A stretch of DNA of 45,083 bases from an uncultured Verrucomicrobiota bacterium (lineage in GTDB: Bacteria; Verrucomicrobiota; Verrucomicrobiia; Opitutales; Opitutaceae): assembly GCA_913058185.1 (NCBI GenBank), contig CAJXQX010000025.1, positions 1 to 45,083 on the forward strand, in the 5' to 3' direction. Both the position numbers and the translations under genes were made by a program. Below, piece by piece: positions 6,907 through 44,232 of this stretch; position 1 is the first letter of the stretch, and every line of letters starts with the position of its first letter. The notes beneath the pieces are model-generated. The model did not search any database. It was given only the letters and a program-made list of their open reading frames with translations, and was not told the origin of the DNA.

Positions 6907-7935
6907 CTAGTCCCTTGCTACTAGCTCCGCTTTCACCATCAGGGCGGCAAGTTCAGTGGCGGAGGTTTTGGCCTCCCAACCGAACTGGGACTTGGCCTTG
7001 CTCGCGTCTCCCCGGAGGAGATCGGCGTCGACGGACCGATAGAACTTGGACGAAACAGTCAGCACCACTTCACCGTTGTCCTGACGAATCCCTTTCTCAT
7101 CCACGCCTTTCCCCGTAAACTCTATCGGCACTCCGGCTGCCGAAAACGCAGCTCGCGCGAAATCACGCACTGTCGTGGATACTCCAGTCGCCAATACAAA
7201 ATCATCGGGGATGTCTGCCTGTAGCATCTGCCACATGCCTTCGACATACTCCGCCGCATATCCCCAATCGCGACATCCATCCAGATTACCTAACGCGATT
7301 GGCTTCTTATCGCCTGCTGCGATACGCGCGACTCCCCCACTGATCTTACGAGTCACAAAATTCTCTCCTCGGCGCGGAGATTCATGATTATAGAGAATAC
7401 CAGTCGCAACGAACAGACCGTGAGACTCTCGATAGATTCGGCCTAGGTTGAACGAGAAGGCTTTGGCGGCTCCGTAAGGGTTACGGGGATTGATGGGAGT
7501 CTCTTCGGTTTGGGGTCCCTCCTTCGGGGCACCAAAAATTTCCGAACTGGCGGCCAGATATAATTTGGTTGTCGTACGCATTTCGCGGATTGCTTCCAGC
7601 AAGTGCAGCGTCGCCATGCCATTTTCCAGACACGTCACCTCTGGCAGCTCGAAGCTCAAACCCACGTGGCTCTGGCCGGCCAAGTGATAGACTTCGTCCG
7701 GCTCCACCTTGTGGAGGAGGCGATGAAAAGAAGTCAGATCATTGAGTTCACCGTAATGTAAGGTCAGACGACCTGATTCCAAATTATGGTCGGTGCGGAG
7801 ATGATCAATTCGGGTCCGGTTGAACGCACTCGCGCGACGTACCAACCCGTGCACCGAATATCCCTGCTCGAGGAGAAACTCCGCTAAGTAGGATCCGTCC
7901 TGCCCTGTGATACCGGTGATCAGTGCTTTTCGCAT
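6907..7935 (-). CDS. gmd: GDP-mannose 4,6-dehydratase
   Basis: Gmd converts GDP-D-mannose to GDP-4-keto-6-deoxymannose, the precursor of GDP-fucose, GDP-rhamnose and related sugars. The 342-residue protein has GITGQDGSYLAEFLL at residues 8-22, RRASAFNRTRIDHL near 34, catalytic NPYGAAKAF near 152, and YNHESPRRGENFVTRKI near 182. manC at 25290-26384 makes GDP-mannose. No GDP-fucose synthase or other downstream enzyme lies in the window, so the end product is unknown. Confidence 0.95.
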   Translation of the reverse strand: MRKALITGITGQDGSYLAEFLLEQGYSVHGLVRRASAFNRTRIDHLRTDHNLESGRLTLHYGELNDLTSFHRLLHKVEPDEVYHLAGQSHVGLSFELPEVTCLENGMATLHLLEAIREMRTTTKLYLAASSEIFGAPKEGPQTEETPINPRNPYGAAKAFSFNLGRIYRESHGLFVATGILYNHESPRRGENFVTRKISGGVARIAAGDKKPIALGNLDGCRDWGYAAEYVEGMWQMLQADIPDDFVLATGVSTTVRDFARAAFSAAGVPIEFTGKGVDEKGIRQDNGEVVLTVSSKFYRSVDADLLRGDASKAKSQFGWEAKTSATELAALMVKAELVARD

Positions 7936-14821: not shown

Positions 14822-14881
14822 CGGGGTCGACGTCGTAGACGTATTGCGCCAGGAATTTAGTCACGACTCGACCCCTTCCCC
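14822..14881 (+). repeat. 60-bp palindrome-ended repeat, copy 1
   Basis: The unit begins GGGGTCGACGTCGTAGACG and ends AGTCACGACTCGACCCC, so its ends form an imperfect hairpin. Copy 2 lies inverted at 16780-16839, on the other side of purA. The two differ mainly in the central 12 bases. Confidence 0.85.
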
Positions 14882-16620: not shown

Positions 16621-16871
16621 TGCGCGGAGATAAGCAAGCAGCAGCTCCGCCGAAGTAGCAGGTATCAAGTAACAAGTAACCCTCCGTCGTCCCGCAGATC
16701 GGGACTAGGGCGGGCAGGCAAGATCCCGTCAGCAGGCTAATATGGGCAGATTGAGTCGCCTGGTTTGTCGGACGCGTCTGGGGAAGGGGTCGAGTCGTGA
16801 CTAATTTACTTCGTAAAGCGTCTACGACGTCGACCCCGGTGGGCACGGTATTAGGTCTGAAAAAGTAGACG
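16621..16871. repeat. Gene-free spacer with 60-bp repeat, copy 2
   Basis: Copy 2 of the palindrome-ended repeat occupies 16780-16839, inverted relative to copy 1. Near 16663-16679 there is a GTATCAAGTAACAAGTAAC stretch, again with a 7-bp period. Nothing coding is visible. Confidence 0.75.
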
Positions 16872-17251
16872 ATGTTGGGCATAAAGAGCCAGATGACAGG
16901 TGATGCGGAACAGTGGGCACCGTTGAGGCTGTCGGGCAGGCAAGAGCCTTTGTAGCTGAGATTGAGCTGCCTCGCCTTTTAGGTAGGGAGTGCTCGCCGA
17001 GCGCTCCCTTTCACCTCTCCCACCGCAACCGGCGGTTTCGGCGAAACCGCCCTACCTTAAACCGACGCACCGAAGACATCTTGCTGCGGAAAGTTCCCCG
17101 GGCTGCCGGAAGGCGATTCGGCCTGCGTAAACAGAGCGCTCGATGACAATTTCAAGCGACGAAAGTGTTCTGCATCATCTGTCATCTGGCCCATAAATCC
17201 CGACCCGCATTAAGACGCATCCTACTGGCTGGGTTGGACTTTAAGCCCGAC
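16872..17251 (+). mobile_element. MITE-like element, left copy
   Basis: This non-coding element of about 380 bp matches the reverse complement of 17796-18212 along its length. Its ends are related inverted repeats (GGGCATAAAGAGCCAGATG at one end, CATCTGGCCCATAAATCCC at the other), each with a TGATGCGGAAC or GTTCTGCATCA motif inside. Internal palindromes include GCGCTCGCCGAGCGC-type sequence near 16990-17010 and GGCGGTTTCGGCGAAACCGCC near 17030-17052. It contains no plausible protein and would need a transposase supplied in trans. Confidence 0.75.
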
Positions 17252-17358
17252 ATATTCAACTAAATTCTAGTCATCTTCCCGAGACATTGTGGTCGTCTTG
17301 CTGAAGTAAGTTGTCGAGTCAGGTTGCGTGGCGGAGGTTTATCTTTTGGTTCCTCTCT

Positions 17359-17784
17359 ATGTCTTCCGACCAATCTCCCATCAGCGCCTACACTGAAACG
17401 AAAGGCCTGCGTTATTTCCCCCGCATGCTGAGCAAGATTCGCCTACAGACCGCCGGCAATCTCCGGGAGGATTTTCTCGAGATGATCGGCAACGGTCTGG
17501 ATGCCCGTATGTGTAGTTTTCTTCATATCGACTACGCGGCGCTTCGAGAGAAAACGCTCACGACTTTCAACGACGATGAAATCTTCGACTGGGTAAACGG
17601 AAACGGACGGACGATTGGAGAAACCGATATCCTCGTTTGGAACCACTATGTGACAAAACTAGGATGGCGCGATCAGGTCACCGAATCGCTCGCAAACCGT
17701 AAGCAAAGCAGTGGGCTTTCCGACCGCAATGAAATCGAAACGATGATCGAATACTTCGAATATGATGAAGGTCGAAAATCGTAA
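17359..17784 (+). CDS. DUF5069 domain-containing protein
   Basis: The 141-residue protein resembles the DUF5069 family, which is common in Opitutaceae. Matching features are GLRYFPRMLSKIRLQTAGNL near residue 12, GNGLDARMCSFLHIDYAAL near 42, TFNDDEIFDWV near 69, ILVWNHYVTKLGWRD near 90, and an acidic C-terminus. No function is established for the family. The frame is open 16 codons further upstream, but MSSDQSPISAYTETK fits family starts. The gene sits alone between two inverted copies of a MITE-like repeat. Confidence 0.8.
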   Translation: MSSDQSPISAYTETKGLRYFPRMLSKIRLQTAGNLREDFLEMIGNGLDARMCSFLHIDYAALREKTLTTFNDDEIFDWVNGNGRTIGETDILVWNHYVTKLGWRDQVTESLANRKQSSGLSDRNEIETMIEYFEYDEGRKS

Positions 17785-17795
17785 GCGGTTCCGGA

Positions 17796-18212
17796 GCTGT
17801 CGGGCATAAAGCCCGACCCACAAAAATACGTCCTGTTGGGTGGGTCGGGCTTTACGGGCCAAGTGCCAAGTGCCAAGTGATGCAGAACACTTTTGGACTG
17901 ATTGAATGTCAGCGAGCGGTCTGTTACCTCAGGCCGATTCGCCTTCCGGCAGCACGGAAACTCACCGCGACAGGGTGCGTTCGGCGCATCGGTTAATGGT
18001 AGGGCGGTTTCGCCGAAACCGCCGGTTGCGGTGGGAGAAATGTAACGGCGCGCTCGGCGAGCGCGCCCTACCTCATAGGCCAGGCTAGCTCAATCTCATC
18101 TACAAGGCTCTCTGCGCATACTTCCCCAGCCTTAACGGCGCCCTCCGTTCTGCATCACCTATCACTCAGACTGTTCTGCATCACTTGGCATCTGGCCCTT
18201 TATGCCCGACAT
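17796..18212 (-). mobile_element. MITE-like element, right copy (inverted)
   Basis: This is the partner of 16872-17251 in the opposite orientation. It keeps GGCGGTTTCGGCGAAACCGCC as its inverse (18003-18025), GGCGCGCTCGGCGAGCGCGCC (18048-18068) and the terminal GATGCAGAAC motifs. At its inner end CCAAGTG is repeated three times (17859-17879). The innermost 60 bp (about 17798-17858) can fold between GTCGGGCATAAAGCCCGAC and GGGTCGGGCTTTACGGGCC and could also stop transcription from the DUF5069 gene. Confidence 0.75.
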
Positions 18213-44157: not shown

Positions 44158-44232
44158 GCTCCTGTAGCACAATGGATAGTGTACCGGTCTCCGAAGCCGA
44201 TGATGTGAGTTCGATTCTCGCCGGGAGCACCA
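44158..44232 (+). tRNA. tRNA-Arg (anticodon CCG)
   Basis: The 75-base sequence folds as a cloverleaf. Acceptor GCTCCTG pairs with CGGGAGC, D-stem GCAC with GTGT, anticodon stem CCGGT with GCCGA (one C-A mismatch at the top), and T-stem GTGAG with CTCGC around TTCGATT. The anticodon loop CTCCGAA gives CCG, which reads the CGG arginine codon. The CCA end is encoded. A 1-bp mismatch at 27-43 is the only flaw. Confidence 0.87.

Follow-up and report, generated by a model that had tools for sequence, protein, structure and literature searches.

Insertion at the axis of a REP palindrome is known for ISRm22 and ISPsy8, and fixed points within REPs have been described for other insertion sequences (ISs) (PMC1525189). 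Tobes and Pareja (2006, PMC1525189) classed ISRm22 of S. meliloti as a type 1 IS-REP association with a 6-bp direct repeat, and ascribed its copies without matching repeats to recombination. REPINs and RAYTs are known from Bertels and Rainey (2011, PMC3116915) and Nunvar (2010, PMC2817692). REP dimers have been reported within palindromic tracts, namely GTAG-15 of A. variabilis and CGTC-1 of H. neapolitanus (PMC3733652), and for O. terrae, a member of the Verrucomicrobia, the same paper lists GTAG REPs, one family of which is mostly GTGG-headed. Here we examine a window of 45,083 nucleotides, the whole stretch of DNA analysed, from an uncultured member of the Opitutaceae. Our results suggest, with high probability, that the two inverted elements flanking a DUF5069 gene in this window arose by independent insertions of one MITE family, which would be moved by a transposase in trans and targeted to REP centres, with the gene as a bystander.

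Like ISRm22, the 12 complete copies delimited here break a REP-like palindrome at its axis; most show a short direct repeat (6 bp in ISRm22, 7 bp here) and some are without matching repeats. The type 1 associations presented in that source are, however, ISs with transposases, whereas the present element is non-coding and encloses a REPIN from a different family. With the systems of PMC3116915 and PMC2817692 the present one shares a pair of inverted REPs with GTAG heads and a RAYT gene that adjoins these REPs, but the REPIN here, unlike those portrayed in these papers, is enclosed in a longer element that has ends and a target duplication of its own. The regular embedding of REP pairs in a palindromic frame recalls GTAG-15 and CGTC-1; in the account of those tracts (PMC3733652) the frame is called a target, whereas the frames seen here, which share their ends but differ in their interiors, appear to be mobile, with a 7-bp duplication. 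NEMIS and ERIC, the MITEs mentioned in PMC3733652 and PMC3116915, are likewise small, non-coding and dispersed, with terminal inverted repeats (TIRs), but as characterised there they differ from the present element in that the latter targets the centre of a REP. Among the papers listed in a literature search, no title or opening of an abstract describes a non-coding element that inserts into one REP family while bearing a REPIN from a different one. REP-centre insertion and REP dimers in palindromic tracts are known; what is new is a MITE that joins both, with its ends around different REPINs. REP-rich intergenic regions can grow by such nesting, with REPs as landing pads for REP-carrying MITEs.

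Anatomy of the two elements

The first-pass annotation described two inverted non-coding elements with internal palindromes, and this description holds: inverted-repeat pairs of 130 nt (82%), 51 nt (86%) and 44 nt (89%) join most of the length of the left and right stretches, the named palindromes are present, and no open reading frame of at least 80 aa overlaps either element. The sizes then given, about 380 and 417 bp, had to be reduced to 305 and 341 bp, the excess being halves of a GTGG-headed REP (Table 1). These limits were set from the repeated ends and the flanking 7-mers, that on the left of the right element by hand, where a scan for TIRs put the inner end 7 bp further in. The nesting has three levels, with a GTAG REPIN core inside an element with ends of about 26 bp, itself inside a GTGG-headed REP (GTCGGG-N7-CCCGAC). 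The 665 bp that separate the elements are made up of the DUF5069 gene, what is left of two GTGG REPINs and about 120 bp of intergenic sequence besides. The possibility that the elements are structured RNA was set aside after an Rfam scan of the window, in which the only match at the gathering threshold was a tRNA (44158-44229). Folded as single-stranded DNA, the right element gives a z score of -4.7, as expected because of its inverted ends; this value says nothing on function. The very large cruciform that the arms had been proposed to form is possible on paper.

Upstream of the left element, a 110-bp stretch (16742-16852) is found in inverted orientation, at 85% identity, at 6921-7030 of the sister locus L168 (JABIRI010000255.1, identical to contig C207 of sister genome G005, reversed). 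Positions 14823-14879 of the window also match part of this stretch (84%), which indicates a further repeat there.

Table 1. Positions in the window of the two elements, the REPs around and within them, and the gene between them
Feature	Positions	Strand	Remarks
Left GTGG-headed REP, outer half	16871..16886		stem GTTGGG and central 7-mer CATAAAG (16880-16886); counterpart unbroken in sister L168
Left MITE-like element (C25L), subfamily A	16887..17191	+	305 bp; absent from sister G005
Terminal inverted repeats of left element	16887-16912 and 17166-17191
GTAG REPIN in left element	16983..17055		two GTAG-headed palindromes, heads outward: 16983 (+), 17055 (-)
Second 7-mer CATAAAT (17192-17198) and remainder of left GTGG REPIN	17192..17253
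DUF5069 gene, 141 aa (likely coding sequence)	17359..17784	+	probable bystander; Pfam PF16798 and synteny
Right GTGG REPIN up to insertion point	17798..17856		one REP unbroken, 17799-17817
Other REP of right GTGG REPIN			broken after 7-mer CTTTACG (17850-17856)
Right MITE-like element (C25R), subfamily A	17857..18197	-	341 bp; absent from sister G005
GTAG REPIN in right element	17999..18071
Second 7-mer CTTTATG (18198-18204) and end of broken right GTGG REP	18198..18211

The element family and its insertion target

The host genome (G000) comprises 4.09 Mb in 159 contigs, of which C25 is the window. It contains at least 73 matches to the left element and at least 77 to the right one, more than chance would give (of the first-look candidates, 40 out of 89 and 40 out of 133, respectively, were scored); some are whole elements, while others are the palindromic core, ends or flanks alone. 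The search for further copies, which the first-pass annotation had proposed, delimited 12 complete copies of 263-499 bp, besides partial ones. All complete copies have TIRs of about 26 bp, with ends close to GGCCAGATGACAGGTGATGCAGAACA. The family is thus short, non-coding and dispersed in several copies, with TIRs and a target-site duplication, and its proposed MITE-like nature is borne out by the dispersed copies, the TIRs and a 7-bp duplication relative to an empty site. A 16-mer of the end matched 29 times in the host (reversed-pattern control, 1), but also 1-13 times in seven relatives (controls, 0-3), for which reason a 25-mer, with 16 matches in the host and a control of 0, was preferred. 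On host contigs C34, C58 and C75, the 16-mer matches could not be extended over the full 26 bp of the end with 7 mismatches allowed.

The interiors fall into two subfamilies and a single copy. Subfamily A comprises both window copies with C29, C13, C42 and C7b (76-90% identity), to which C6b was assigned from the alignment, outside the identity matrix; subfamily B comprises C7a, C17, C1a and C57 (72-91%); and C52 stands alone as a third kind with a different GTAG REP. Identity between these groups is 45-56%, a level that we take, without a control, as no real relation. The right window element is 87-90% identical to C29, C13, C42 and C7b but 76% identical to its partner; judged from these identities, the two window copies are not each other's closest relatives.

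Each of the 12 complete copies breaks a REP-like palindrome at its axis, with small departures. The seven duplicated bases are the centre of GTCGGG-N7-CCCGAC, so that the target is symmetric about the axis. An exact GTCGGG stem lies at 7 bp from 20 of the 24 ends; the other four show GTTGGG (two ends), TCCGAC in place of CCCGAC (one) or a shift of one base (one, in C57). A TIR scan placed 19 of the 24 ends, 15 of them exactly, while five (one each of C25R, C13, C7b, C6b and C1a) were positioned manually with knowledge of the flank and do not provide an independent flank. Among the eight ends of partial copies, six have a GTCGGG-like stem (at most one mismatch) at 7 bp. Unlike the type 1 IS-REP associations, as these are set out in PMC1525189, the other two partial-copy ends (C6 at 20958 and C14 at 23461) and the single copy in genome G004, whose 7-mers by eye are GCTGACG and GCTTACG, lie outside such a REP. 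The GTGG REP itself has 71 matches in the host; of the 8 genomes of the genus, 7 contain it, and the control gave 0.

Directly repeated 7-mers agree at all seven positions in C29, C42 and C17, at six in both window copies and C52, and at five in C13; the 7-mer repeated around C17, CGTTATG, differs from the usual centre. In four of the 12 complete copies (C6b, C7a, C7b and C1a) the 7-mers are inverted, and in C57 they agree at four of seven positions. We take the copies with inverted 7-mers to be probable recombinants, as published for ISRm22.

Empty sites and the DUF5069 gene

At the left site, sister locus L168 has an unbroken GTGG REPIN with a single CATAAAG; in the window, 305 bp lie between CATAAAG and CATAAAT, which adds up to a gap of 312 bp. 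Relative to this empty site, the target duplication is 7 bp with 6 of 7 bases identical. At the right site, the DUF5069 and PepSY genes are 6 bp apart in G005 vs 438 bp in the window. Two further copies are absent from sister genomes: C17 from G006 (167 bp between matched flanks vs 453) and C29 from G005 (28 bp vs 568) and, by spacing only, from G006 (125 vs 661 bp). The left site is the only one at which the 7-mer can be compared with an empty REP, since the REP, too, is missing from the sister at the other three sites (the right window site, C17 and C29). The first-pass annotation had proposed looking for an empty site and a target duplication at about 16870 and 18213; empty sites were found, with a separate pair of 7-mers around each element. 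Could the elements be ancestral, with the sister genomes having lost them? In principle this could have happened, and only two sister genomes were compared at the locus, but the sister REPIN is unbroken with a single 7-mer, so that loss would need precise excision of the element together with one 7-mer, and copies are absent wherever sister flanks were found (both window copies from G005, C17 from G006, C29 from both). We consider ancestry followed by loss very improbable.

The DUF5069 gene matches Pfam PF16798 (107.6 bits vs a cut-off of 27, scanned on a longer, 157-aa reading frame). Its start is likely the ATG at 17359, because the G005 match contains two TAGs, both of which precede this ATG (by eye, in L168). 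The closest relatives in named records are from Opitutaceae MAGs, and no paper on DUF5069 turned up in the literature searched. It had been suggested that the inverted elements are the ends of a composite transposon, with this gene as its cargo. Inverted copies do closely flank one gene, and by our own arithmetic 12 copies placed uniformly in 4.09 Mb should give about 0.03 pairs less than 1 kb apart, which makes so close a pair somewhat unlikely. Against this, the gene order purA, DUF5069, PepSY of the window is also that of G005, which has neither element, and in G006 the gene lies just after purA, again without the elements and with other sequence downstream. Moreover, separate 7-mer pairs flank the two elements; the two differ more from each other (76% identity) than the right one does from four other copies (87-90%); and the whole unit was not encountered elsewhere in the host, where other DUF5069 matches are only 27-43% identical. 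There is hardly any chance, in our estimation, that the gene was moved as cargo. A fixed gene position and the lack of other genomic copies had been named together as grounds for dismissing the composite unit; the gene has the same position in two sister genomes, and other copies of the element do exist. Pairs of inverted repeats around a gene invite a tempting misreading as a composite transposon, which is corrected here.

Since G005 is empty at both sites and each element has its own 7-mers, the gene probably stayed put while each element inserted separately. In the reading that we prefer, a transposase in trans, probably of the DDE type, would recognise the ends of about 26 bp and insert the element at the centre of a GTGG-headed REP, duplicating the seven central bases; the DDE type is suggested by the target duplication together with the inverted ends. 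The left element would have inserted into an older REPIN that lies upstream of DUF5069. At the right site, the space between the converging DUF5069 and PepSY genes may first have received a GTGG REPIN, into which the element then inserted, and DUF5069 would have remained unmoved throughout.

The REPIN core and candidate mobilisers

The core of both window elements consists of two inverted GTAG-headed REPs. With up to 3 mismatches allowed, the first of these in the left element matches 70 times in the host, against 0 for the reversed pattern. Of the 12 complete copies, 11 contain at least one strict GTAG palindrome and 6 pass this test for both REPs, whereas one is present in 2 of 286 control tiles taken from elsewhere in the window; the twelfth copy, C6b, shows REP remnants by eye. 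A RAYT gene on host contig C68 (NF047646, 94.8 bits vs a cut-off of 80) is flanked upstream and downstream by GTAG REPs like those of the elements, and we infer that this REP-associated tyrosine transposase may have spread the REPIN in the middle of the element. What looks like sequencing adapter, resembling the Tn5 mosaic end, was observed at two contig ends, L065 1900-1930 (where C68 ends) and the beginning of L273 (C65), an assembly artefact close to the RAYT gene and to one element end.

The presence of GTAG palindromes or their remnants in all complete copies raises the alternative that there is no separate MITE, and that long REPIN- or BIME-like repeats were spread by tyrosine transposases alone, the ends belonging to a TIR-associated tyrosine transposase system. 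PMC3733652 notes inverted repeats flanking some tyrosine transposases, as well as REP dimers inside palindromic tracts. The host has six Y1-type genes (PF01797 profile, the sole transposase family sought). Five of them, on contigs C3, C60, C15, C18 and C14 (L060-L064; that on C60 with an internal TGA), are in addition to the RAYT gene, and neither GTAG nor GTGG REPs were found near these five at the mismatch level used. However, the inner 16 bases of the ends were unmatched (at up to 3 mismatches) in all six Y1 loci (L060-L065; the full-end TIR scan was of loci other than L060-L064), and GTAG REPs (70 matches) outnumber the ends (29). Transposition of the IS200/IS605 type is not known to yield a target duplication, whereas a 7-bp duplication was seen here. 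Tyrosine transposases alone are therefore an improbable explanation.

A mobiliser for the ends was sought by TIR pattern searches with a 16-mer (2 mismatches) in 8 genomes of the genus and a 25-mer (3 mismatches) in 200 genomes sampled from the family. The full-length relative with a transposase that had been suggested was not seen in the loci read; the host assembly is in 159 contigs. The outer end occurs in 4 of the 200 family genomes, all of one genus (1 of 49 genera): besides the host, G001, G004 and G005 have one 25-mer end each, and around these single ends there was no second full end with a transposase between. The 16-mer matches of relatives were inspected at eight loci (L185, L186, L188, L189, L190, L192, L194 and L201); three in G002 were set aside, as they had no matching outer end. 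Outside the host, the matches listed for the right element all fall within the REPIN core (query positions 128-222 of 341). Because the ends are rare outside the host and the outside matches listed are confined to this core, the family seems to have been amplified in this lineage.

Single copies or remnants of the outer ends in the relatives adjoin other GTAG repeats (G004, L293 1501-1664; G005, L189 1390-1600; G001, L185 1491-1655). The strict detector found two palindromes beside the G001 end and none in the G004 and G005 singletons, where a GTAG repeat pair with shorter stems is visible by eye; this shorter-stem pair recurs in 4 of 323 loci (L189 and L294 being one place). The REP type of C52 was found in 5 of 323 loci, four of which are the C52 place itself.

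It is also possible, although we would put it forward only tentatively, that the ends are a modular carrier which has repeatedly captured different REPINs. This reading is prompted by the two dissimilar interiors around one REP family in the host, by C52 with another GTAG REP, and by the further GTAG repeats that adjoin ends in G001, G004 and G005. REPINs would then have two routes of travel, their own tyrosine transposase and a second transposase delivering them into the centres of another REP family. If the ends do recruit different REPINs, the spread of REPINs would not depend on RAYT alone.

A small palindrome around GTCCCGCAGAACGGGAC adds one more level to the nesting: in copies C7b (L071) and C23 (L073), as well as next to C29 (L066), it was observed within the hairpin of a GTAG REP.
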